From NCBI GenBank assembly GCA_958296045.1, contig CATQHT010000001.1, forward strand, positions 620,001 to 684,000: DNA of 64,000 nucleotides, written 5' to 3'. Below are positions 17,759-63,923 of this stretch, in pieces. This stretch comes from Rhodothermales bacterium (GTDB taxonomy: Bacteria > Bacteroidota > Rhodothermia > Rhodothermales > Bin80). The position numbers were made by a program, and so were the translations under genes. A model generated the notes under the pieces. The model was given only the letters and a program-made list of their open reading frames with translations, made no database searches and was not told the DNA's origin. Numbering within the stretch: position 1 is the first letter of the stretch; every line of letters starts with the position of its first letter.

Positions 17759-18624
17759 CTAGAAAAAGTAGAGCGTGTGGACGAAAGATAACAAGCCGTT
17801 TCGCGCCATGTGGTCTCGCAGAAACCAGAAGTAGTCCCAGACGGCTTGCTTGAGCGCTGGGTCGGCGCCGAAGTCCGTGATCTTCAGTGACAGCTCTGCC
17901 TGCAGGGTCTCCATGTCGATTCCTCGACCGTGCGTCAACCACCGCTTCTGGTCGTTCAACTGCGTCGCGATCCAACCGGCTCGCTCTTCCTTCATTTCCT
18001 GAGTGACCTGAATTCCTCGGGTTTCCGTTTCGACCCAGTCCTTGAACTTGTAGCTGGTCAGCCACCGTTTCAGCAGGTTGATCGACAGATTGCGGGCGAG
18101 TTCGAACTGATGGAGTTCCGCCAAATCAAGCTTCTGGAGCAGGACCAACTCCGCGGTCGACAGTGTCTCGCTGCTGCTCTTCTCGATCAGGTTCTCGTAC
18201 TGCGCCAGGTAGGACAGCGCTGGCACGAGACGGTCGTCCAGTTGAAGTTGCGGATCGATCGGCCCCAGACAGGAGTGATAGTCCATCAGGATATCGTCAC
18301 CCGACATGGCCAACACGGTCCCTGCCGACATCGCCCGATCCGGGATTACGAACCTGACCTCCGTGTAGTGGTGTCGAAGCACGCGGACAATCCGCTCAAC
18401 GACCTCGACAATCCCCCGAGCGCGTCGAGGATCACGACCAGATTCGGCCTCCGATCTTCCCTGGCCTCGATCGCGATCTTTACCCGTTGTTCCACTACGG
18501 GCTGCATCGGCGAAATGATGGTGAGTCCGTCGGCATCAAGCATCTGTTCGATGCGCTCAAGACCGACGCTGGCCCACGCGCGGGTACTGTCCTGCGTAGT
18601 CGGTGGCATGGGAACGTTGGACAA
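17759..18624 (-). pseudogene. SDH-family Clp-fold serine proteinase, single-base frameshift
   Basis: Two overlapping minus-strand frames make one protein. The first (ATG 18624) ends in NLVVILDALGG; the second continues IVEVVERIVRVLRHHYTEV, then RFVIPDRAMSAGTVLAMSGD and MDYHSCLGPIDPQ. These are hallmarks of the SDH_sah / SppA-like Clp-fold serine protease family; the Ser in MSAGT is the likely nucleophile. The frames join if a C5 run at 18413-18417 (G5 on the coding strand) had one more base (GGGGGG). About 288 residues would result, the normal family length. Homopolymer loss could be a real mutation, a contingency switch or an assembly error. The small ORF at 17536 follows. Confidence 0.8.
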
Positions 18625-18817: not shown

Positions 18818-19075
18818 TACTCAATGACGCCTATCAACGCCATCCCGAACGCTTCCCACGAGGCGCTCCAAGAGTCCCCAGACCTCCTAAACGAGCATGG
18901 ATTAACCCACCAGCATGAGATGACCACCGTAACCAACAAGGCAATGACGCAACGCCAAAACCAGCCGCCTGCAGCGGCCGCACGGCCCAACATGCTCGCC
19001 GTTACGATACACTATTTGAAACCGCAATCTGTACCAAAACCGTTTGCACACTCCGCCGGTGAGCTTCTCAAGTTG
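18818..19075 (+). pseudogene. IS3-family orfB C-terminal remnant
   Basis: In one frame the sequence reads NDAYQRHPERFPRGAPRVPR and then AWINPPA, the conserved tail of IS3-family OrfB transposases (AYxxHPERFxxGxP...WINPP), followed by a degraded stretch with stops. It matches the segment at 52597-52850 at the nucleotide level. It borders the 3' end of the AAA ATPase gene at 19083. Confidence 0.7.
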
Positions 19076-19082
19076 CGTCGCA

Positions 19083-20414
19083 TCAGTCTTCGTTCCGACC
19101 ACGCAACTCCACGGTAAGGTCCCATCTGTCTCCGATGATCTCTGGTGAATGCGTAGCAACAATCGCTCTGAATTCGGTAACACATGCCGCCTCCTCGAGA
19201 TCCTGCACCCACTGTTCTTGCCAAGTGATGTGGAGCGAAAGTTCTGGCTCATCAATGAGAACGAGTGAATTGCTCGAAGCTTTAAACAGCAACTCGTAAA
19301 GCATGACTAGCTCGTGCTGCTCCCCCGAAGAGAGTTTCTCCAGATCCAAAGCAGTGCCGTCGATCTTGGTGACGCTCAGTCCCTCTGCGTTGACCGCTAC
19401 TTGCTTATGACGAAAGCGGCAGTTAGCGATTCTCTTGAAGGTGCTTACCTTGTTGTACAGCTCATCGAAGACCGCTAGTTTTTGCATTGCGTCGTGCGCG
19501 TACACCGCGAGTACGCCGCGCTGCGATTCATCAACGCGACTCAAATCGGGAATATCGAGGCCGTGCTGGTTCCCTGCTATCAGGCCCACGTCCTCCAGTT
19601 TCATGCGCATCCGGTCTATTGCGTCAAGGTCTTCGCGCAACGCTTCAACCGCGCGGCTCGAATGCATTTGGTCGGTAACCAACCGATTGGGAAAGGTGCG
19701 GTCAAGTAACTGGGATTTCGCTCCGTATTTAGCAATGGAGTCCTTGATGCGGCGACTGAGCTCTTGGGAATAATGGCTCACGGTCCGTGTTGTCTTGATT
19801 GCACGGTTATGCCGCCCCGGCCGTAATACGTGGGTCAATCGCTCAGTATCGATCAAGCGCACTGTAACGGAGCGCCTCATGTCCTGCAGCCAATCGGGGC
19901 CTTGAAGGAGGGCCGGTCTAGGTTGAAGACGCAGGGACTCCCAGTACGTTGTCCGTATATCGTCAAAATCGAATATGTACCCGGTCTCCAAGTTGAGCCA
20001 TTTGTCGTAATCAACTCGTTTAAGTTCCGGTATGATATCTTCTATAGCAGAAGCCGGAATCCTGCGGCTATCTTGGGCGAATGGAACGCGGGGAGGCTGA
20101 AAGATGTCGGTCGAATCTCCGAGTTTACGGATCAATGTAAGTGGCACCCGATCTCCAGTTTGACCGTGGCTCGCCGAATCTCTTCGCACGACCAGCTGCG
20201 TGCCGTCATCGAACGCAACGTCGACCTCTCTAAACGGGATGCTGCTAAGACGGCTTAGCGGCTCATTAAACAGTACATCGATGAGCTTCAGAATCGTGGT
20301 CTTACCGAAGCCGTTCGGACCGATGACCAGCATGATGCGCTCGCCGCTGGCAAATGCGAGATCGTGGTCAAAGTCGTTGAATAGACCCGTGACACGGATA
20401 CGATCGATTTTCAT
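19083..20414 (-). CDS. Stand-alone AAA/SMC-like ATPase, putative defence ATPase
   Basis: 443 residues with the OLD/RecF-like arrangement: Walker A GPNGFGKT at 32-39, a long insert with coiled segments, an ABC-type signature LSSGEQHE around 361-368, Walker B SLVLIDEPELSLH around 384-396 and a switch His in ATHSPEIIGDRWDL near 422. Such stand-alone ATPases occur in anti-phage modules (for example as PtuA-like or OLD-like partners) and act on DNA or a toxic effector. No HNH, TOPRIM or reverse-transcriptase partner is visible in the neighbouring 1 kb, which is occupied by an IS256 remnant upstream and an IS3 remnant downstream. Function therefore uncertain; intact in frame. Confidence 0.8.
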   Translation of the reverse strand: MKIDRIRVTGLFNDFDHDLAFASGERIMLVIGPNGFGKTTILKLIDVLFNEPLSRLSSIPFREVDVAFDDGTQLVVRRDSASHGQTGDRVPLTLIRKLGDSTDIFQPPRVPFAQDSRRIPASAIEDIIPELKRVDYDKWLNLETGYIFDFDDIRTTYWESLRLQPRPALLQGPDWLQDMRRSVTVRLIDTERLTHVLRPGRHNRAIKTTRTVSHYSQELSRRIKDSIAKYGAKSQLLDRTFPNRLVTDQMHSSRAVEALREDLDAIDRMRMKLEDVGLIAGNQHGLDIPDLSRVDESQRGVLAVYAHDAMQKLAVFDELYNKVSTFKRIANCRFRHKQVAVNAEGLSVTKIDGTALDLEKLSSGEQHELVMLYELLFKASSNSLVLIDEPELSLHITWQEQWVQDLEEAACVTEFRAIVATHSPEIIGDRWDLTVELRGRNED

Positions 20415-24412: not shown

Positions 24413-24812
24413 AAGGATGCGCGGAGCAAGACCATGAACCATACTCTGCTACCTCCATCCGTACGTAATACTGCACCTACGATCCGCCCTTGCATACGCG
24501 GCTATACCTGCGTGACTACGCCGCCTACATGCCAAAACAGCACTTCAATCCCAGTCCGCACTGCAGCCACATAGCCGCTCGATCATTGACTAGGTGCGCC
24601 CTCAATAGAAGATCACCCGCACCCGCAACCAGACTCCCAAAGAACATCGGCGAATAGCGATACCTGTCAGAGCTACCAATCATGGCTGCTCTGCCGAGTT
24701 GAGGATACCTCAACCTGCCCGAAGCCGAGGCTACCGCATAGCCATAGAAGACCGCACCAAAATATAAGCAGGGCAAACCTCCCGGCTTAAATGCTGTCTA
24801 CGGGACGGTTAC
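24413..24812 (-). repeat. Extended right end of IS66, with a conserved small frame
   Basis: The 400 bases after tnpC hold no gene on the plus strand. On the minus strand an 83-codon frame (24776-24525) contains MPCLYFGAVFYGYAVASASG and LGRAAMIGS; close relatives are readable at 52449 (MPCLCLGVVLYGYAV) and 56539 (PCLCWGVVFFGYAITSASG), in the same position relative to the IS66 terminus. This could be just nucleotide conservation of the long inverted repeat, or a small protein. Confidence 0.5.
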
Positions 24813-24922
24813 GTTGTTGGGGCTGTTGGAGCTGGTGTGATCGGGGGTATAACGTCGTGTAGAAGGTCCCCTTATCATCGTTATTCTGGGTCTTTGTTTA
24901 ATCAGACAAGAGGCCCAGCGCC

Positions 24923-52262: not shown

Positions 52263-52412
52263 GCGGCCGAAGCCGCGTGAGTGCTCGTCTTGGCGCAATC
52301 CATCCGGGCTTCTGAGCATTTGCATGCCAATTCCGATCATCAGAGTGTAGGGGTGCTGTATCTGCCAGATCTAGGCAGGGCCGTGCACCGCCAAGACCGG
52401 GACCCTTGCGGA

Positions 52413-52497
52413 GTAGCCGTCCCGTAGAATGGATTTAGCCCGGGAGACTTGCCCTGCTTATGTTTGGGCGTGGTCCTCTATGGCTACGCGGTATCCA
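52413..52497 (+). mobile_element. Solo IS66 right-end fragment
   Basis: Begins GTAGCCGTCCCGTAGAATGG and continues CTTGCCCTGCTTATGTTTGG and CTCTATGGCTACGCGGTA, matching the right terminus of the IS66 element at 24812 (reverse complement) and the fragment at 56503. Homology stops about 52497 where IS3 orfB sequence begins. No IS66 genes here. Confidence 0.7.
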
Positions 52498-52892
52498 ACT
52501 GCATGCACTATCACTTGCCATTGGCGCTCATGCGATTCAGTACCGTTCCTTTCCATCAGACCCAACAACGACTCGCTCAACGGCAGCCCGTTCTCAGTAA
52601 AGCATATCAACGCCATCCCGAATGCTTCCCATGAGGCGCTTCAATGGTCTCCAGACCATCTTCACCAGGCTGGATCAACCCACCAGCGGGAGACGACCGC
52701 CTTACCCGACAAGTCAATGAGCCAACGTCAATACTATCCGCTCGCAGCGGCGCAACGGCCCAAGACGGTCGTCGATACGAGCACCACTTGTATTCGCAGC
52801 CTGTACCAAAAGCGCTTGCACATTCCGATTGCAGCATCTTGAAAAAGCTGACCCATATGCAGCACCAAAACAGCTGGACAGAGCCCGTTTAG
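52498..52892 (+). pseudogene. IS3-family orfB C-terminal remnant
   Basis: One frame reads CMHYHLPLALMRF, HQTQQRLAQRQPVLSKAYQ, RHPECFP, a TGA, then GWINPPAGDDRL, aligning with the H-x-x-LALxTPxxVHF...AYxxHPERF...WINPP tail of IS3 OrfB. Starts and the catalytic core are missing. Similar in DNA sequence to 18818-19075. Ends next to the unknown gene of the DUF262 cluster. Confidence 0.75.
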
Positions 52893-52905
52893 TCGAATCC
52901 ATTGA

Positions 52906-53892
52906 TCAGTGATGCCTCTTCGTGTCCAGATGACGGCCAATGTAGCCGATTTCGATCCCGCGTGGGTTGTCGATCACACGTAGGTGGATCCGATAAGCGG
53001 AACCCACCATTGTATGTCGCTTGTACTCGGTTACTTCACCGTTCGGATCTCGAAACCTGCGCTGATCGCCGAATTGCTGCATGGTTTGTTCGCTCTCTGG
53101 ATTGCACTTGGGCAGATCAGGAAAGGCCATCGCCAGATTGCGGCGCCATGTGCGAGAGGCGTGGTCCAGGGTTATCAGCTTCCCGATCACTACCCGGAGT
53201 ATACACCGCGGGATCTCGTCAAGTTGGCTGTCCACATCGCGGCCGAACGTCAGATGAGGGAAGCAATCACCCTTTTTCTCGGCCAGCGCCGCTGGCACCC
53301 CCCGTAGACCTTGCCTGCTCCTCTCGATGAGAAGGTCTGATAGCCGTTCGGCTTGGGAAGACTCGGATAGGTTGAAAACTTCGACATCGGCCGTCTTTTC
53401 CTGACCGTTTTCAGCCAACCACAGGTGCTTTAGCTGAATCCGAATATCATACCATCGGTCCTCAGATCGAAGGCTGACGCCAATGCCTTCGAGGAGATAG
53501 GCGGCCCCAAGTCCCCGGGCATCCACCCGATCTATCGACTTACCTTCAGACCCCATTGAGACGAAGAACTCCGACAAGTGGAAGCGATTGCTTAGGGCTT
53601 CGCCAGCCTCCACTGGAAGGTCGCAATTGCTCGCAATGGTAAGCATGAGGCGCCTGTAGTCTGGATTGGCTGCCGATAACCATTCCGTCACAGTGTAACT
53701 AGGTGCCAGCTCTGCCTCCCAAAGATTGGTCTCCCCGACTGTCACTAGGGTCGCGGGGTGGCCTGCCATCATGGTCGCCATTGCGGTGACCATATCGTCC
53801 ATCCGTCGGCGGCCTTGGTGTGTAGTGGGAGCTGGTGCCTTGGCCGATAGCTCGTTGAAGAAAAACCAGATTTGAGTGTCTCCAGATGTCAC
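52906..53892 (-). CDS. Unknown protein, third gene of DUF262/DUF3696 cluster
   Basis: 328 residues from GTG 53892, which overlaps the stop of the upstream ATPase (GTGA). No family recognised. The N-terminus (IWFFFNELSAKAPAPTTHQG) is predicted alpha-rich; the C-terminal ~130 residues (CFPHLTFGRDVDSQLDEIP ... YRIHLRVIDNPRGIEIGYIG) look like a separate compact alpha/beta domain with a basic RIHLR..IGYIGRHL strand pair that superficially recalls RelE/ParE-like toxins. No catalytic signature can be named. By position it is the likely effector or partner of the ATPase. No signal peptide. Confidence 0.65.
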   Translation of the reverse strand: MTSGDTQIWFFFNELSAKAPAPTTHQGRRRMDDMVTAMATMMAGHPATLVTVGETNLWEAELAPSYTVTEWLSAANPDYRRLMLTIASNCDLPVEAGEALSNRFHLSEFFVSMGSEGKSIDRVDARGLGAAYLLEGIGVSLRSEDRWYDIRIQLKHLWLAENGQEKTADVEVFNLSESSQAERLSDLLIERSRQGLRGVPAALAEKKGDCFPHLTFGRDVDSQLDEIPRCILRVVIGKLITLDHASRTWRRNLAMAFPDLPKCNPESEQTMQQFGDQRRFRDPNGEVTEYKRHTMVGSAYRIHLRVIDNPRGIEIGYIGRHLDTKRHH

Positions 53893-55022
53893 CGGAAAGC
53901 ATGCGCTGGGTCCACGGCGGAGGTTGGTAAACCAATCAACCGGGAAAGGTTACGTTCATGCTGGTCAAAGAACCCTACAGGCCATACATCCAATTGGCCG
54001 CTGGAAGTTAACATAGGAGTCGTGACCTGTACCTCAAGTCCGTGCCGCTCGAAGTAGTGAATGACCACTTCGTCTGGGCGGAGAATTCCCTCGCGTACCG
54101 CGAGGCGCACACCGTTTAGCACATGGTCACTGTGGGTCTCCAGAATCACTTGCGTGCCGCTCGCTACAGCACGGGACGCCAGTTCGGCGAGCGCCGTTTG
54201 GCCGGCAGGGTGCAGATGAGCCTCTGGATTCTCAATGATGACCAGATGCTCAACTGCACCATGTGAAGCACGCTTCGGTGCCAACAGAGCAACGATCGGG
54301 GGGAGACCGTAGCTGATGCCAAAGCCTACGTTTGCGGCGCGAAACAGGGAGCTCGGAACATCATCTGATCTAGCAAATCGATAGCCGACAACGGCACGAT
54401 CGGCCTCTGGAATCACTTTGATCTGCAGGTCGGCCCCAGGGCTGATGACGCTCAGCCACGCGCTCGTTTGAGCTACAAGCGTCTTCTTAGGTTCGGAGTG
54501 GTATCGGACCGGCTGACGGATCGGGAAATGACCGAACCTGTCCAGATACCAAAGCACATACTCCCCGCGTTTCCCAAGGGGGGTGGCGGAAGAGTGTTCC
54601 TCCTCCAAGTACGGCAGAAGGTTCCGTGGGCCAAGCCGGTCAGCAGATAGATAGAAGACATCCCCTTGAAACCACTGCCTAGCACCTGCGCTGATTTCGC
54701 TAGAATCCAATTCTCCTCCACGCTGTGGAGAGTGGTTCTCAAGACATGCCTTGCCCCTTCCCGAGAAGAAGGACGCTTCCAGCCGGACAGAGTCCTCAGG
54801 GGCGTCGTTATGGAGTACGTCACGCCATGCCCCCAGATTCACCAGCGAACCACGCCACGGCTGCCCGGGGCCGGGCCCCCATCGTTGGCGGAGCGCCAAC
54901 AAAGCCTGAATCACACTGCTCTTGCCCGCGCTGTTGAGGCCAGAGAGAACGGTCAGTCCCCCGAAGCTTATAGTCTCGTCTCGGAAACACTTGAAATTAT
55001 GGAGTCGGATGTGGTCAATCAT
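53889..55022 (-). CDS. DUF3696-type SMC-like AAA ATPase
   Basis: 377 residues from ATG 55022 (the frame is open 41 codons further, but this ATG overlaps the DUF262 stop as ATGA and starts MIDHIRLHNFKCFRDETISF, the normal beginning). Walker A GLNSAGKS is at 28-35; the Walker B region reads VIIENPEAHLHP, with GQTALAELASRAV and ETHSDHVLNGVRLAV after it. The C-terminal LDVWPVGFFDQ is the DUF3696 signature. These OLD/RecF-like ATPases recur in phage-defence and restriction clusters. Middle gene of three overlapping genes. Confidence 0.88.
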   Translation of the reverse strand: MIDHIRLHNFKCFRDETISFGGLTVLSGLNSAGKSSVIQALLALRQRWGPGPGQPWRGSLVNLGAWRDVLHNDAPEDSVRLEASFFSGRGKACLENHSPQRGGELDSSEISAGARQWFQGDVFYLSADRLGPRNLLPYLEEEHSSATPLGKRGEYVLWYLDRFGHFPIRQPVRYHSEPKKTLVAQTSAWLSVISPGADLQIKVIPEADRAVVGYRFARSDDVPSSLFRAANVGFGISYGLPPIVALLAPKRASHGAVEHLVIIENPEAHLHPAGQTALAELASRAVASGTQVILETHSDHVLNGVRLAVREGILRPDEVVIHYFERHGLEVQVTTPMLTSSGQLDVWPVGFFDQHERNLSRLIGLPTSAVDPAHAFR

Positions 55023-56194
55023 GCCAGAACCTGCTGCACCACGTCCCGTGTCCGCCCGAAACGAATGTTCACTTTTTTCGTCGTATGAGTTCCCGTCGAG
55101 ATGCTCTCGAAGAACTCTGGATCTTCCATTAGTTGTGCGAGGCACTCGACAATGCGGTCCTTCTGACTCTTCAGTTCTTCGGCATAACCTTCTGGAACCT
55201 CTGCCAAAGCCACCGACAGGCTCTCAAACAGGGCTTTATTCACGGGATTCCTCGATTGCACCTTTCCTAGCCGACTTGGCTTCCTAAAGGCTTCTTGTCC
55301 AAAGATGTCGAATGCCAGTGACATGGCACGGCGAAAGTCAGCCTTCAACGACGATACATGTTCTTGCTGGGCGTTGTTTAGGGACTTCATCGCGCTCATC
55401 AGGAAATCGTCTAGTTTGCCTTCATGCCTAGTCACGCCCAACAATCGAAAGGCCAAGAAACGCAGCACACACTCCCGATCTGCCATCCGCTTATCACTCA
55501 CCGAATTGTCGGTTGCCTTGAGAAATTCCTCCGATTGGGCTAGCTCTCCTAGGAGGTCGCGGGCTGGTCCCGGATTGAGTGCATGGCGGATCTCCTGTGC
55601 CACCAGTGGCTTTCCTCCGGTGTTGATGCGCTTGAAGATGTTGAACATCACTTCGGGCGGAGTTCCTGGCTCAATAATATGGCAGGATAGCTGCGTTTCG
55701 GTGATCCTGCGCTGCATCGGGCGAGGAAGTTCGGCGAAGGAGAGGGCATCGAACTGGCTCAGGTACTCGAGCCCTTGGAGCTGGAGTGTCTCTTCCAAAA
55801 CAAATGCACGCACCGCACTCAGCCGTTGCAATCCGTCTACGACTTGCCAATTGTCGTCGTGGTCGGCCGCCATGTAGAAAACCGGAAGGGGAATCCGGAG
55901 GAGCATGGACTCGATCAAACGACTTTGCATAGGTCTCGTCCAGATGTTACCGCTGCGCTGAAAGTCGGGCTGGAGATTGATTTCTTCGAGGCGCATCCTA
56001 TTGACAACTAGACTCACCGTCGGTTGCCTCGTTGAAATCCTGATCTTCGTTGGATCGAAAGGCTCGTCAATAGCTGCGGCATCGGATGCATCCTCCGCTT
56101 GCTCCTTCTCAACCCCCTCGCCTTTCGTGGCTCCCTCTTCCTGAACGTCGATTGCGAAGTCGTTGGGCCGGTTCGCGGTCTCATCGCCCACCAT
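55019..56194 (-). CDS. DUF262-domain protein (ParB/GmrSD-N-like)
   Basis: 391 residues from ATG 56194; a longer frame to 56431 adds an unconvincing segment. An acidic low-complexity start (20-45) leads to a DUF262 domain: INLQPDFQRSGNIWT, SRLIESMLLRIPLPVFYMA and VVDGLQRLSA (DGLQR 120-124), the DGQxR motif linked to nucleotide binding or hydrolysis. There is no C-terminal DUF1524 HNH nuclease as in GmrSD enzymes; the C-terminus is an alpha-helical region. First gene of the cluster; its stop overlaps the ATPase start by 4 bases. Probably the specificity or NTP-sensing subunit of a defence module. Confidence 0.88.
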   Translation of the reverse strand: MVGDETANRPNDFAIDVQEEGATKGEGVEKEQAEDASDAAAIDEPFDPTKIRISTRQPTVSLVVNRMRLEEINLQPDFQRSGNIWTRPMQSRLIESMLLRIPLPVFYMAADHDDNWQVVDGLQRLSAVRAFVLEETLQLQGLEYLSQFDALSFAELPRPMQRRITETQLSCHIIEPGTPPEVMFNIFKRINTGGKPLVAQEIRHALNPGPARDLLGELAQSEEFLKATDNSVSDKRMADRECVLRFLAFRLLGVTRHEGKLDDFLMSAMKSLNNAQQEHVSSLKADFRRAMSLAFDIFGQEAFRKPSRLGKVQSRNPVNKALFESLSVALAEVPEGYAEELKSQKDRIVECLAQLMEDPEFFESISTGTHTTKKVNIRFGRTRDVVQQVLA

Positions 56195-56502
56195 GCTACT
56201 TGGTGCGGTTAGTGGTGCATTCGGAGGCGCGCTGATAGGGAATCCGCAGTTGCCTAGAGCCGTAACCCTAGGCAGTGCACCTGGGACAACACCCGGCTCC
56301 CGATTTGCACACGCATATTCGCGATCCCATTTCTGCCTCCTTCGGAACTGAAACGAAGCAGAGCAGGCCACGTTTCTCAGCGGTTTCCCGATCAGGCCCG
56401 TAATCGAACGTGGAGGTGCTGGGTGTAACAAGACAAGGTATCTGGATTCGGTTTCTTGCCGTATCCGTCTGATGGACTACATGTGCGTCAATCGGCCTTA
56501 AG
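56195..56502. other. Upstream region of the DUF262 operon
   Basis: About 300 bases between the DUF262 start and the IS66 end. It must carry the promoter of the three-gene cluster, but no convincing -7/-33 pair or operator-like inverted repeat is apparent to me. Confidence 0.3.
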
Positions 56503-56819
56503 GTAACCGTCCCGTTGAATGGATTTAGCCCGGGAGATTTGCCCTGCTTATGTTGGGGTGTGGTCTTCTTTGGATATGCGATAACATCCGCTTCAGGCTG
56601 GTTAGGGTTTCCTCGTCACGGCAGAGCAGCCATGACTGGTAGCGCTGGCAGATATCGGTATCTGCTGACGTTCTTTCGGGGCCAGATTGTGGGCGTGGTC
56701 GGTCTTCTTTTGAGCGTATACCTGGTCCATGAGTGAGCGGCCATACGGCCGCATTGTGGACGGGGATTGATGTACGTTTTTTGGCATATAGGCGGTCTAT
56801 GCGTAATGCGGCGAATTCG
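56503..56819 (+). mobile_element. IS66 right-end remnant flanking IS21-C
   Basis: Starts GTAACCGTCCCGTTGAATGG and follows the right end of the 24.8 kb IS66 (reverse complement) for about 250 bases, including GGCAGAGCAGCCATGA and the small conserved frame (PCLCWGVVFFGYAITSASG). Cut at 56819 by the start of IS21-C. The partner left-end remnant is at 62168-62425 in opposite orientation; no IS66 genes lie between apart from IS21 sequence. Confidence 0.75.
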
Positions 56820-56929
56820 TGCACCCAATCCGAGGTAAGCTGGACACCCGCGCTGGAGGTTGTCCAGCCGCGTTATGATGGTGACGTAAGCTGCCATGCC
56901 CTGTGGTTGCTGGGAGATTGTGGTTAGAA

Positions 56930-57694
56930 TCAAGATGAGTCTTCTGGGTTTTCCGGCACATGCACGTTAGCCATTTGCTTACGCATCGAGTCGCCGGTCA
57001 GCTGGATGCGGTACGCGTTGTGGATGAGGCGATCCAGGATAGCATCGGCGAGCGTAGGATTTTCCATGGCCTGATGCCAGCGTTCCACCGGGAGCTGGCT
57101 GGTAGCAATGGTGGAGCTGACCTGGTGTCGGTCATCCAAGATTTCCAGCAGATCATCTTGCTGCGCGTTGGTGAGTTTTTTTCGCCCCCAATCATCAACA
57201 ACCAGCACGCTAAGCCGCGACAACGTACGCAGCAGCTTCAGGAGCCGGCCCTCTGCTCGCGCCAGCGCGACGTCTTCGAGCATTCGTTGCAACCGGAAAT
57301 AGCGCACTTTAAAGCCTTTCAGGCAGGCGGTGTGGGCCAGCGCACAGGCAATATAACTCTTACCCACGCCGGTGGGGCCGGTGATGATCACGTTCTGCTT
57401 TTGGCGTATCCAGTCGCATCCGGCCAAATACAGCATGAGGCGACGGTCCAGTCCGCGATGCATGCGATAGTCTATGTCCTGCATACACGCCTGTTGCCGT
57501 AGCCGAGCGCGGCGAAGCCGTGACTTCAATCGAATGCTTTCACGCCGGTTGGCTTCGCGATCCACCAGCTCACCGAGGCGGTCCATGAATGCCACCTGCT
57601 CAATGCCAGGATGGTTTAGCTGATCGCGCAAAGCGTCGGCCATGCCATAGAAGCGAAGCTTCTCGAGCTGCTCTATCGTTGGGTGTGTCAACAT
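56930..57694 (-). CDS. istB: IstB helper ATPase of IS21-C
   Basis: 254 residues from ATG 57694 (MLTHPTIEQLEKLRFYG). Walker A GPTGVGKSY, Walker B SVLVVDDWGR and IstB motifs SQLPVERWHQAMENPTLADA are intact. The frame is open upstream through the istA tail to 57835 because of a 1-base deletion in istA, so istA and istB are now in one frame; the ATG at 57694 is the normal start by comparison with elements A and B. Confidence 0.92.
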   Translation of the reverse strand: MLTHPTIEQLEKLRFYGMADALRDQLNHPGIEQVAFMDRLGELVDREANRRESIRLKSRLRRARLRQQACMQDIDYRMHRGLDRRLMLYLAGCDWIRQKQNVIITGPTGVGKSYIACALAHTACLKGFKVRYFRLQRMLEDVALARAEGRLLKLLRTLSRLSVLVVDDWGRKKLTNAQQDDLLEILDDRHQVSSTIATSQLPVERWHQAMENPTLADAILDRLIHNAYRIQLTGDSMRKQMANVHVPENPEDSS

Positions 57695-57830
57695 GGAACG
57701 AAGCGTTGTTGTCAGGGGGGTCGGCGTAGTACTGGGAACGCGGATGTTGTCGTGCATGATGGGCGGGTCCTCCGCTGCCTGGTACAGGGTAAGCCGCTCA
57801 ATGCCACGTTTGAGAACATTAGCGATGCTG
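57695..57830 (-). pseudogene. istA: 3' end of istA of IS21-C (separated by IS21-B, frameshifted)
   Basis: Encodes SIANVLKRGIERL through MHDNIR, continuous with the 5' part at 60578 once IS21-B is removed. Near 57736-57742 one G is missing relative to the expected HDNIRGSQYY, which moves the end of istA into the istB frame. Confidence 0.8.
57825..57830. repeat. Target-site duplication of IS21-B copy 2 (left copy)
   Basis: ATGCTG at 57825-57830 is repeated at 60578-60583, abutting both element ends. Collapsing one copy restores the istA-C reading frame (RTSSIANVLKRG). Confidence 0.93.
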
Positions 57831-57964
57831 TGCATATTCCACGGAAAAAAACCACTCGTTCCACGGTATGGCGACCACCGATTCCACGGTTAATCGACCA
57901 CCTGATTCGGCGTGCTGAGTCCGCGCTGGATAGCGCTGCATCGTGACTGTTCTGGGTACCATTT

Positions 57965-58744
57965 TCACGGCTGTCTGGCTTCAGTTACGCTTGTCTTCTC
58001 TGGAAGGTTCTGCCATTTTGGCAGACGCTGTCTCATGGACTCTCCCTTCAGCGCGATGTGGTGTGCATTGTGAATGAGGCGATCCAGGATAGCATCAGCG
58101 AGTGTTGGGTCTTCCATGCCTTCGTGCCACACACTCACAGGCATCTGGCTGGTAACGACGATGGATCCCTTCTGATACCGATCATCGATTAGCTCAAGCA
58201 GATCCCGCTGGTGCAGCGCACTGATTCGTGACAACCCCCAGTCATCGAGAACCAGTAGGTGGAAGCGCGTCAACTGCTTCAGCAGTTTCAGGAAGCGTCC
58301 GTCCCCGTGCGCGAGTTGCAGATCTTCCAGAAGACGATGCAGTCGGTGGTAGCGTACGGTGAACCCCTCCATGCAGGCTTTATGCGCCAGCGCGCACGCC
58401 ACGAAGCTCTTGCCGACACCGGTGGGTCCGGTAATGATCACATTGTGATGTTTGCCCACCCAGTCGCAGGTGGAAAGCGAGGCCATCAGGCGCCGATCCA
58501 GATTGCGACCGCGACGATAGTCCAGATCGGCCATGGAGGCCTCCTGGCGTAACCGGGCGCGGCGTAGGCGCGACCGCAGGCGATTGTTGTATCGCACGAT
58601 CTCCTCGTGGTCAACCAATAGGCCCAGGCGGTCCATGAACGGGAGCTGTTCCATTTCCGGTTGGGTAAGCTGATCACGCAGCGCGCGCGCCATGCCATGC
58701 AGACGCATCTGCTCGAGCTTGTCAAGGGTAGGGTGTAGGAGCAT
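57965..58744 (-). CDS. istB: IstB helper ATPase of IS21-B copy 2
   Basis: 259 residues, three substitutions from copy 1 (HHNVIITG, AHGDGRF, SVTEARQP here). Walker A GPTGVGKS and Walker B LLVLDDWG are intact. The start overlaps the istA stop by one base (TGATG). Confidence 0.94.
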   Translation of the reverse strand: MLLHPTLDKLEQMRLHGMARALRDQLTQPEMEQLPFMDRLGLLVDHEEIVRYNNRLRSRLRRARLRQEASMADLDYRRGRNLDRRLMASLSTCDWVGKHHNVIITGPTGVGKSFVACALAHKACMEGFTVRYHRLHRLLEDLQLAHGDGRFLKLLKQLTRFHLLVLDDWGLSRISALHQRDLLELIDDRYQKGSIVVTSQMPVSVWHEGMEDPTLADAILDRLIHNAHHIALKGESMRQRLPKWQNLPEKTSVTEARQP

Positions 58745-60306
58745 CAGTCCTTCGAGGTTTGGTGAGGAGAATCCGATTTGGTGTCGTAATAGCTTGGGCC
58801 CCGGATGTTGTCATGGTCTATGGGAGGCGGAGACACCGAGTCCAGCGGATGCTTGTCGAGTCCATTCTTCAGGATGGACGCGATGCTCCTGTACGAGCGG
58901 GTGCCGATAGCGATTGCCCGCGTACACGCGTTTTCCATGCGGCTCTTACCGTAGATGCGAGCCAAGCGGAGCAGGCCCATGAGCGTGCGGTAACGAATCA
59001 GCGGGTGCCGCTCAGCATCGATGATCTGCCGCACGATATTGTGTGTGTCCGGCCCGATGCGTTCTGCCTCGGTTACGAAGCGGCTCATATCGTTCATTTG
59101 GCGTTGGGCGTCCGGCATGTGTTCATCCTTGGTGGTGACCCCTTTCTGGTGGCTACGCGGGTGCGTCGCCACCCGTTTGTCGTCAAATAATGCCTCCAGG
59201 GTGGTATCTGTAAGGCGAACCTGTACCGAACGACCTACATATCGATAAGGAACGCTATAACGGTGCCAGCGCACCTCGATGTGCGCATCTCTGTGCACCT
59301 TGGCTTTGCGCCACTCCGCGTGCTCGTACGGCTCCGCCGGCAAGGGCTTCATCGCTGATCGCTCCCACGTGTCAAACCAGCTCTTACGACTGCCTTCCAG
59401 CTTCTGAAAAGGCCGCTCGTTAAGCTCCTTCAGATGGACACGAATGTGCCGGTTCACGTGCGCTAGACCGATGAAACGCTTATCGCTTAACGGAGCCAGA
59501 ATGCGCCTCTCTGCATGCAACACGGCTTGCTCGACCTTGGCCTTGTCCCTGGGCTTCCCGGGACGCGTAGGCACAACCACGGTCTTGTAGTGCATCGCAA
59601 GGTCCTGATACGACGGATTGATCTCCGGATCGTATCGGTGGGCCTTGCGCACGCCACTCTTCAAATTGTCACAGACCACATAGGAAGGCACCGCCCCGAA
59701 AGCCTCGAACATGCGACGATGCGAGCCCAGCCAGTCCCCAAGACGCTGCGTCCACGTCGCCTCAACGTAGAGATAATTGGAGAATCCCAGCACACCAACA
59801 AAGATCTCCACCCGACGCCGCTTACGCGTAAGCTGGTCTATCGCCTCCAGGCGCATGCCTGCATAGTCCACGAAGGCCGAATGACCCGCAGGATGATCCA
59901 TCGGAACCGTCACCTGGCCAAATTCCTTCTTCCAGGCAGAGTAAAGAGCGCAGAACTTGCTGTAGCCGTAACCATCGCTGTGGTCCCGCCTGTACCGCTC
60001 CCACATCAGGCGCCGCGTGAACCCCTTGACCTGCATCTTACGCTCCACCTCGGACCAGTCCGGCAACGGACGCGTCTCCTTGGCAACCTCCGGCGGACCA
60101 TAAAGCAATGCCTTCAACTTGGCCTCCGGCATACCCTCGGGCAAAGGCCAATGCACACCCGCTGCCTTAGCACGACGCAAGTAACCAAGTACCGTGCTGT
60201 GCGATATTCCCAGCGCACGACCGATACCACGTACGCTCAAATCAGACTCCGCAGACAACCGCAGAACGTCCCACAAAACACGCATAACAACCCTCTTGTT
60301 TGGCAT
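58744..60306 (-). CDS. istA: IstA transposase of IS21-B copy 2 (intact)
   Basis: 520 residues from ATG 60306 (MPNKRVVMRVLWDVLRL), with the N-terminal HTH, the integrase core (D147, D213, E259 equivalents) and an uninterrupted C-terminus (SVPYRYVGRSVQVRL) where copy 1 has a stop. The frame is open upstream across the element's left end into istA of IS21-C, giving a 1077-codon open frame (61977-58744); the internal ATG with its GAGGGGTAC upstream is the expected start for the functional protein. Confidence 0.93.
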   Translation of the reverse strand: MPNKRVVMRVLWDVLRLSAESDLSVRGIGRALGISHSTVLGYLRRAKAAGVHWPLPEGMPEAKLKALLYGPPEVAKETRPLPDWSEVERKMQVKGFTRRLMWERYRRDHSDGYGYSKFCALYSAWKKEFGQVTVPMDHPAGHSAFVDYAGMRLEAIDQLTRKRRRVEIFVGVLGFSNYLYVEATWTQRLGDWLGSHRRMFEAFGAVPSYVVCDNLKSGVRKAHRYDPEINPSYQDLAMHYKTVVVPTRPGKPRDKAKVEQAVLHAERRILAPLSDKRFIGLAHVNRHIRVHLKELNERPFQKLEGSRKSWFDTWERSAMKPLPAEPYEHAEWRKAKVHRDAHIEVRWHRYSVPYRYVGRSVQVRLTDTTLEALFDDKRVATHPRSHQKGVTTKDEHMPDAQRQMNDMSRFVTEAERIGPDTHNIVRQIIDAERHPLIRYRTLMGLLRLARIYGKSRMENACTRAIAIGTRSYRSIASILKNGLDKHPLDSVSPPPIDHDNIRGPSYYDTKSDSPHQTSKD

Positions 60307-60577
60307 AAGTACCCCTCTTTTGGTAAGTAAAGAGGGTACGATACCACCTGCGCTTGACCTGCCGCCATCACCCGCGACAGGCAACAATAACCCGTTTCTA
60401 ACTCCGCCAGACTGCCAATTTGGCAGGTCCGTTAACCGACCTCCTACACCCCGCCGCCACCGGTCGGCGCGCGCCAGCTCAGGTGGTCGATTTCCCGTGG
60501 AACCACTGGTCGATTTGCCGTGGAATCGGTGGTCGATTTCCCGTGGAACCACTGGTCGATTTGAAGCGGAATATGCA

Positions 60578-61977
60578 ATGCTGCTTGTGCGGAAGATCTG
60601 GTGCACTAATGCCCACTTACAGGCCGCCTCGATGTGCTCGCCTGGATAGGCGCGCTTAAGGTCCAGGAGCCCCCAGCGAAAGCCCTGCTCAGGATGCCTG
60701 CGGCGCTCTATGATGGTCAACGCTACCTTCTCCGTGTTCGGACCGATCTGCGCGGCACGCTCAAGCAGGCGATGCTGCTGGGCGTACTCCTGATGATTCG
60801 AAGGCATATGCTCTGGATGTGTGCTCCATCCGTAGACCTTGGGGCATAACATGTGGGATGCTATACGTTGGTTGCTAAGGTATATCTCCACGGTAGCTTC
60901 CCCCACGCATACATTCACCTTGCGCCGGACATGCCGATACGGGACGCTGTAGAACCGCTTGTTCACCGCTACGTGATAATCAAAGCTCACCGTGGCCACT
61001 TTCCACTCCCTATACTCAAAGGGCTTCGGGGGTAAGGGGCGCATCGCGGGCAAGTCCACCGCCTCAAACTGACTGCGACGGCTCCCTTCGCGCTTCTGAG
61101 AAGGAGTGTTATTCAGGGTAACCAACCCCTTCGCAATCCGCTCATTGAGCATATCCAGCGTGAGGTAAGGGACAGTACCCAAGGCGGCCAGAATCCACTG
61201 CTCCACTACTTTGACCGCAGATTCGACTTTGGCGTTATCCCTTGGTTTTCTCACGCGAGCTGGCAGCGCTACCAGATCGTAATGCTCGCACATCTCCTGG
61301 TAGGTAGGATTGATTTCCGGATCGTAACGGTGCGCCTTCTTAACTGCCGCCTTCAAGTTGTCAGGCACCACCGCCGCCGGTACCGCACCGAAAAACTCAA
61401 AGGCCCGACGATGTGCGCCAATAAAGCTCCTCAGCGTCTGGTCTCCGGTGGCCTCCGCATACGTGTAACTGGAAAAACCCATCGTGGCCACAAAGACCTG
61501 AGCTGGCTTCCGCTGATCACGCACCTTTATCGTCATGCCCGCAAAGTCCAGATAGAGCTTCTCACCCGCCTTGTGGTGCAGATGCATGGTCACCTGCGTG
61601 CGGTGGCGCCAAGCACGATATAGGTCACAGAAACGACTGTAGCCGTAGCCGTCTGGATACGCTGCACGGTAAGACTGCCAGATCAACTTCAGCGTCATGC
61701 TCGACCGCGACATCTTCCGATGCACCACCTCCCACCTTGGCTCAGACTTGTGGCGCACAGAAGCCTCCGCATACAGGCGTGACTCCAAACCATGATCATC
61801 CAAATCCTCTGGCAGAGGCCAGGACAGACCCGCATGCTTTGCACGCTCCAAATACGCCCTCACCGTACTGGCTGAAACGGACAGACACTTCGCAATCTTA
61901 CGATTGCTATACCCCTCCCGGAAATGCAGCCGAAGCACGTCCCTAATCGCCCGCATAGACACTCGCTTGTTTGACAT
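60578..61977 (-). pseudogene. istA: 5' part of istA of IS21-C, interrupted by IS21-B
   Basis: About 466 codons from ATG 61977 (MSNKRVSMRAIRDVLRLHF): HTH (NRKIAKCLSVSASTVRAYLE), integrase core with LYLDFAG, VVPDNLKAAV and AKVESAVKVVEQW supplying the likely D, D, E residues, and the YSVPYRHVRRKVNV region. At RTSSIA the sequence runs in frame into the left end of IS21-B. The missing C-terminus is at 57695-57830. Confidence 0.92.
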
Positions 61978-62606: not shown

Positions 62607-63923
62607 CTACCGTTCTGGTTCTGGACTGCGATCACGATTATCCCCCCGCCTAGCGCGGACACCCTGCCGTGCCGGGGTCGGCCTCTCCTCACCACGGGAC
62701 ATCGGCGGAAGGGTCTGGGCGGAAACGGCGTATTCCTGCAACAGCCAGGTACGCATGGACGGGATCGGGATTGATAGGCTTCCATTCGGCCTCTCGCTCA
62801 AGACTCCCTTGTGCAGCGCATGCTGAAAAACCGCTTGTGCGCCGTCTGGCGTCCTATGGCCAAGAAGGGCTGCGATCATGTCCGACTCCTCCAAGGTGCT
62901 TCCCTCCTCTCCCAGCAAAATTGCAAGCACCCTTCTGTCCGCGAGGCTGAGACCCTCAGCCCTACCCTCGTAGTATGCGACCCTGCGGGTCTGCCCTGTT
63001 TCTAATACCTCCAATGGCACCTCTTCTCGCAGCACGCCGCCAGCACCATATAGCCATTCGGCTGCTCGCGGCGCAAAGGCCTGTATATGCTGCGGCCAAC
63101 CGTGACATTCCGCCGCAAGCGTATCAATCCAGTGCTCCAAGTGATACGGGCTACCCGTGCCACCGCCGGCCTTTACCAGCCAGTCGCGGATCACCGCCCG
63201 TTCCGCCTTCGGCGATAGCCGGCCCAAATGCTGGACGCAGTCCTGCATGAAGCGGGAAATCCCGAACGTGCCGAACACAGCCCGGGATGTGCCCAGTCCG
63301 CCAGCCAGCAGTACCACCGGCGCGCCTATCTCACCGTTGTGTATGAGGTCCAGGTTCGCCGCTATCGCGGCCGCGGCTGGCGCGCCTCGACGTATTTGGA
63401 GGTTTTGCACCTCATCCAACAGGAGGAGGAGACCGCCGGGGCGGGCTGCATCCTTCAAGAGTTCGCGTATTTCGAGCCCAGCATGCTCTGAAGATCGCCT
63501 TACCGCCCGGTAGCGAAAAAGTGCAGCCACCGACGATAGTCCAGCCCTCCATCCGGCCTCCCTGTGCACCGTTGTCTGCGTAGCGTAAGGCACATCCAGC
63601 CGTGCCGCCAGTATTCTCGGGTCATACAAGGCACTATCCTGTATCTTCGCCACCCGCCATCCGTCCCCTGTCGCCCGCTGGGCACACTCGAACAGCAGAG
63701 CCGTCTTGCCCGCCCCTGGCCCGCCCTGAATGAGGAAGATAGTCCCGCGGTTGGACTGACGCGCGTAGCCCAGCCTCTTTGCGAAAGAGCGGAGTTCACG
63801 TGTGCGCCCGTGGAAAAATGTCGCAGGCCCCCGATCGTCATCAAGTATGGGAACCAGCTGCCGCGGTGGAACCACTGGCAGCGTAGCGCTCCGAGGGGGA
63901 AGCATGTCGGAGGAATGCTTCAT
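62607..63923 (-). CDS. AAA/STAND-type ATPase of unknown role
   Basis: 438 residues. FHGRTREL near 38-45 is the AAA_16-like entry motif; Walker A GGPGAGKT is at 67-74 and Walker B LLLLLDEVQ at 164-172; then an Arg-rich sensor region, a helical lid and a winged-helix-like C-terminus. The last ~35 residues (SRGEERPTPARQGVRARRGD) are low-complexity and may result from a frameshift. Similar orphan ATPases are common on plasmids and integrative elements. An upstream gene on the same strand ends at 63950. Confidence 0.8.
   Translation of the reverse strand: MKHSSDMLPPRSATLPVVPPRQLVPILDDDRGPATFFHGRTRELRSFAKRLGYARQSNRGTIFLIQGGPGAGKTALLFECAQRATGDGWRVAKIQDSALYDPRILAARLDVPYATQTTVHREAGWRAGLSSVAALFRYRAVRRSSEHAGLEIRELLKDAARPGGLLLLLDEVQNLQIRRGAPAAAAIAANLDLIHNGEIGAPVVLLAGGLGTSRAVFGTFGISRFMQDCVQHLGRLSPKAERAVIRDWLVKAGGGTGSPYHLEHWIDTLAAECHGWPQHIQAFAPRAAEWLYGAGGVLREEVPLEVLETGQTRRVAYYEGRAEGLSLADRRVLAILLGEEGSTLEESDMIAALLGHRTPDGAQAVFQHALHKGVLSERPNGSLSIPIPSMRTWLLQEYAVSAQTLPPMSRGEERPTPARQGVRARRGDNRDRSPEPER

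Follow-up and report, generated by a model that had tools for sequence, protein, structure and literature searches.

Three genes encoded on the minus strand occupy positions 52906 to 56194 of the window, i.e. the whole 64,000-nt stretch of a Rhodothermales bacterium contig that was analysed. These are nsnA (55019..56194), encoding a DUF262 protein (GmrSD_N, ParB-like NTPase) of 391 aa; nsnB (53889..55022), encoding an OLD/PtuA-like ABC-type ATPase of 377 aa with a C-terminal DUF3696; and nsnC (52906..53892), which starts with GTG and encodes a two-domain protein of 328 aa, the putative effector. Their coordinates, strand and lengths, as well as the 4-base overlaps, were correctly given in a preliminary description of this DNA, the junctions being GGCATGATTG between nsnA and nsnB (ATGA overlap) and CCGGTGACATC between nsnB and nsnC (GTGA overlap). 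For each gene, a frame this long would remain open by chance at the local G+C with a probability of ~3e-7 to 3e-6. Both the GTG start of nsnC and the GTGA junction are shared by L033 and L034, distant relatives from Caldilineaceae. A promoter scan of 52300-57000, a kind of scan that is uninformative for this phylum, found none.

The first two proteins belong to the families proposed for them earlier. NsnA matched Pfam GmrSD_N (E 4e-18) and contains the motif DGLQR at aa 120-124, with D120, G, L, Q and R124 invariant in 12 relatives. NsnB matched AAA_15/AAA_21 and, in its tail, DUF3696 (1.5e-10), with GLNSAGKS at aa 28-35; the Walker A motif (G28..S35), E264-NPE-H-H-P and ETHSDH show little or no variation among 20 relatives. 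In Pfam searches, no separate nuclease domain was recognisable in NsnA or NsnB, and the DUF1524/HNH nuclease domain was absent from all three proteins, in agreement with the earlier remark that the DUF262 protein lacks HNH.

Comparison with the PADLOC models assigned the three proteins, in order, to NsnA (E 1e-138, aa 22-390 of 391), NsnB (E 6e-99, aa 1-363 of 377) and NsnC (E 1.2e-55, aa 10-323 of 328), which, from the PADLOC naming and the system reported by Millman et al. 2022, we take to be the genes of Menshen. Menshen (NsnA-NsnB-NsnC) reportedly originates from that work, and its domains are said to have been analysed by Li et al. 2025. These full-length matches far exceed those to any other defence family, the runner-up for NsnA being PD-T4-2_A with 135 bits vs 461 bits for NsnA. 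On these matches, the trio is almost certainly a complete Menshen anti-phage operon, so that a cluster that looks like an orphan in Pfam turns out to be a known defence system. The proposal that it is of an undescribed or poorly described type thus fails, since the PADLOC run returned a complete match to a named system, the very outcome that the preliminary description had said would refute it. Its other proposal, an anti-phage module, is borne out by family membership, from which a defence function in this organism is also presumed.

According to a review (PMC10952713), Menshen combines an OLD-type ATPase with a DUF262 gene, and its phage resistance, which is reported for Menshen and not for this operon, disappears when the DUF262 gene is deleted or mutated. 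One Menshen component is said to carry an OLD TOPRIM domain (PMC10952713). No match to TOPRIM was obtained for any of the three proteins in the Pfam search, and because the PADLOC NsnB model spans no more than 345 positions, almost all of them covered by the present NsnB without TOPRIM, this domain probably lies outside the Menshen core.

The third protein had been described as lacking a recognisable family. This is correct for Pfam, NCBIfam and PHROG, none of which gave a match, but PADLOC does have models for it (NsnC). Only chance-level matches (RNA polymerase and others) were found among PDB sequences. An AlphaFold2 model built from 20 relatives (pLDDT 85.6, pTM 0.72) divides NsnC into an N-terminal domain (53293..53892, minus strand; ~aa 1-200, with a FNELSA motif), probably for coupling or tethering, and a C-terminal domain (52920..53259, minus strand; aa 212-324) with a predicted RelE/YoeB/YafQ fold, a predicted RNase. 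The best structural match of aa 212-324 was YafQ at Z 7.9, with 82 residues aligned at 2.7 A (82 of ~90 residues in the best matches), followed by YoeB (Z 7.8), RelE and HigB (both ribosome-bound), ParE and the CRISPR effector Cami1. Almost every one of the top 39 entries belongs to the RelE superfamily, and the entry that comes next has Z 4.2. The Z values of the RelE-superfamily matches, 5.2-7.9 and thus all below 8, are by themselves no proof of homology. Foldseek also retrieved RelE-family toxins with the model, at probability 0.96-0.99. With the whole model, methionyl-tRNA synthetase came first in Foldseek but was rejected (probability <0.1, rmsd ~22 A).

Two further observations on the C-terminal domain are worth noting: 1) In a complete Menshen operon of another Bacteroidota genome (L042), which has intact NsnA and NsnB, the N-terminal part of NsnC matches the PADLOC model (2e-35) and aa 204-283 match Pfam YoeB_toxin (5.5e-16), this YoeB domain occupying the place of the RelE-like domain in the window's NsnC. 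2) Among the 20 relatives, H293 is conserved in 16, R301 in 18, H303 in 15 and His or Lys at position 321 in 16. Residues of this kind (His/Arg/Lys) serve RelE-family RNases. Given the predicted RelE/YoeB-like domain, NsnC is most likely the effector, as had been suggested for the third protein, and this poorly understood subunit gains a testable predicted activity, that of a RelE-type RNase for which specific residues can be named.

Of the three subunits, NsnC varies most, having 16-27% identity to most relatives. Its N-terminal domain is common to NsnC relatives bearing other C-terminal domains; modelled alone, the N-terminal 200 residues (pLDDT 82.9) gave no clear fold match, the best Z being 3.1 with no PIN protein listed. 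The NsnC of another Menshen locus (L041, 6665-7513) has a C-terminal part similar to CARF-DUF2103 proteins (E 1e-6), providing sequence evidence of C-terminal domain swapping. Since the C-termini vary in this way, an RNase role need not hold across Menshen. Two proteins of ~740 aa (L062 and L063) end in an NsnC-type C-terminal domain, the former containing a coiled coil and matching PADLOC HEC-07, which suggests that other defence proteins also make use of the RelE-like domain.

The NsnC model was searched against 395 genomes of the same phylum (Bacteroidota) and 301 Chloroflexota genomes. NsnC was found in 10 of the former, the window's own genome included, and NsnA-NsnB-NsnC were contiguous at 8 of 10 Bacteroidota loci outside the window, so the third gene is indeed conserved beside the other two. 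One of the two remaining loci is cut by a contig edge inside NsnB; the other, in a genome of the same family (G215; L035, 5606-7400), is decayed, with NsnA intact (61-63% identical) and only fragments of NsnB and NsnC. In Chloroflexota, 17 genomes matched NsnC, and NsnB lay directly upstream of it at 13 loci; the others had fragments, no NsnB in a short flank, or proteins sharing only the C-terminal domain (e.g. that in L062). Two Caldilineaceae (Chloroflexota) MAGs contain the closest relatives, with 60-76% identity in all three proteins. In one of these MAGs (L033, 4563-5992), NsnB is split over two frames by a frameshift or an assembly error. No homologues of NsnC turned up in records of phages and plasmids, nor, in searches with peptide patterns, in viral contigs.

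The tree of NsnA places the window together with the two Caldilineaceae (support 0.99) and leaves the same-family G215 outside, suggesting transfer between phyla. The operon has thus probably crossed phyla, with misbinning of a MAG contig being another possible source of this pattern. All 16 genomes of the family that were searched have the gene that neighbours the trio at 50.9-52.3 kb. In G215, this gene and NsnA are on separate contigs, so the trio probably does not belong to the ancestral neighbourhood. With insertion sequence debris in both flanks and relatives in another phylum, the horizontal acquisition proposed earlier is probable.

The earlier assignment of IS3 and IS66 remnants to both sides is broadly correct, as judged by comparison of repeats. 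On one side lie an IS66-end remnant (52413-52496), which is a direct repeat of the copy at 56503 and shows 82-88% identity to copies adjoining IS66 transposase genes, and an IS3-like 3'-end remnant (52504-52828), which is 78% identical to the 3' portion of a locus with an rve transposase (L078:7315-7640). On the other side lies an IS66-end remnant of ~292 bp (56503-56795) with ~20 copies in the genome, including one beside an intact IS66 gene in the window (24521-24815). The possibility that the repeats flanking the trio represent an unknown element was rejected, since their copies adjoin IS66 genes or the IS3-like locus. IS21 genes (IstB and IstA; 56930-61977), which were absent from the preliminary description, are located upstream of the trio. 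They comprise two IstB genes and two IstA frames fused into a single frame of 1077 aa (58744-61977), such as would arise from insertion of one IS21 into another or from recombination between them. Both the spread over Bacteroidota and Chloroflexota MAGs and the decayed state of the operon in a genome of the same family are compatible with a mobile and costly defence module.

Several other ORFs of the window, all on the minus strand, were noted. A separate AAA_15 ATPase similar to AriA/PtuA (19083-20414; AriA 1.9e-25), with an IS3-like remnant (18820-19055) just downstream, is a possible second defence gene, one without an obvious partner. The region 17759-18382 encodes an apparently truncated fragment matching the ClpP-like SDH serine proteinase (PF01972). 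An AAA_16 ATPase is encoded at 62607-63923, and AAA proteins resembling it adjoin IS3-like remnants in L078 (7970-9331) and L079 (8090-9193), a recurring pairing.

For the mode of action, we propose that i) NsnA, with a ParB/GmrS-type NTP pocket in its DUF262 domain, and NsnB, an OLD/PtuA-like ABC ATPase, would together form a nucleotide-gated sensor and regulator, ii) NsnC would dock on NsnA/NsnB via its N-terminal domain, iii) infection would open the gate and release the RelE/YoeB-like domain of NsnC, and iv) this C-terminal domain would cleave ribosome-bound mRNA (or other RNA), halting both phage and host translation. The complex of the three proteins, its trigger and the RNase activity are elements that we infer; the RNase-effector step, which builds on the predicted fold, seems somewhat more likely than not to hold. 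A broader formulation, whose chances we consider evenly balanced, is that Menshen may be an ATPase-gated RNase family, in which a constant NsnA-NsnB sensor would be combined with an interchangeable NsnC warhead (YoeB, divergent RelE or CARF-DUF2103-like) and mRNA, not DNA, would be cleaved.

The main competing explanation, less probable but deserving consideration, keeps the operon as Menshen and has a nuclease effector in NsnA, then a ParB/Srx-like DNase, or in NsnB, then a nuclease of the OLD type, leaving NsnC as a specificity or inhibitor subunit with a degenerate RelE-like fold. A nuclease role has been guessed for the OLD component in a review (PMC10952713), the DUF262 protein has been termed a putative nuclease (PMC11980606), and the high variability of NsnC would also suit a role in recognition. 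However, NsnB has no TOPRIM and NsnA no DUF1524, and a degenerate fold would not need the conservation observed at H293, R301, H303 and H/K321. The operon could also be a toxin-antitoxin style element, in which NsnA and NsnB restrain a RelE toxin, NsnC, and which serves stabilisation rather than defence. The predicted RelE/YoeB fold, as well as the state of G215, with nsnA intact and nsnB and nsnC in fragments as expected if the toxin goes before its partner, are consistent with such an element, but large ATPase and DUF262 partners are typical of defence and phage protection has been published for Menshen as a class (PMC10952713), making this explanation improbable. That the trio is an undescribed defence system merely resembling known ones, as the missing Pfam, NCBIfam and PHROG matches of the third protein might suggest, is refuted by the full-length PADLOC matches, the identical gene order in other genomes and the publication of the same architecture as ptuXYZ (PMC11980606), and can be given hardly any weight.

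The effector assignment preferred here, with NsnC as a predicted RNase, can be set against the systems already known. The locus shares with Menshen all three genes, at full length and in the same order, differing only in detail, i.e. in the divergent RelE-like C-terminus of NsnC and the lack of TOPRIM in NsnB. The system itself was thus already known, and what is added is the assignment of NsnC as the likely effector, the likely synonymy with ptuXYZ and the cross-phylum relationship. The ptuXYZ locus was described in 2025 as a novel defence locus encoding a DUF262 protein, a PtuA-like ATPase and a third protein, ptuZ, with a PIN-like N-terminal domain (probably inactive) and a C-terminal YoeB-like domain (PMC11980606). 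These features recur in the present trio, including the third protein with an N-terminal domain and a C-terminal YoeB-like BECR domain, whereas the PIN fold of the N-terminal domain was not reproduced for NsnC. Judging from the gene order, the domains and the bridging L042 operon, ptuXYZ, which has been published with 17 loci, is probably the same system as Menshen. The word Menshen is absent from the main text of PMC11980606, and no paper with both names was found in the literature searched; if the two are the same, they should be merged in databases.

Among other systems, the type IV restriction proteins GmrSD, BrxU and SspE also have a DUF262 N-terminal NTPase domain, but the trio has no DUF1524/HNH nuclease and instead has a separate ATPase and a RelE-like partner. 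PARIS, Gabija and Septu share the OLD/PtuA-like ATPase (AriA, GajA and PtuA, respectively), whereas the trio has other partners and a DUF3696 tail, and lacks a TOPRIM, helicase or HNH partner. The mRNA interferases RelE, YoeB, YafQ and HigB, as well as Cami1, resemble NsnC in the predicted fold of its C-terminal domain; in contrast to them, NsnC carries this domain fused to an unrelated N-terminal domain and would be controlled by ATPases rather than by a small antitoxin.
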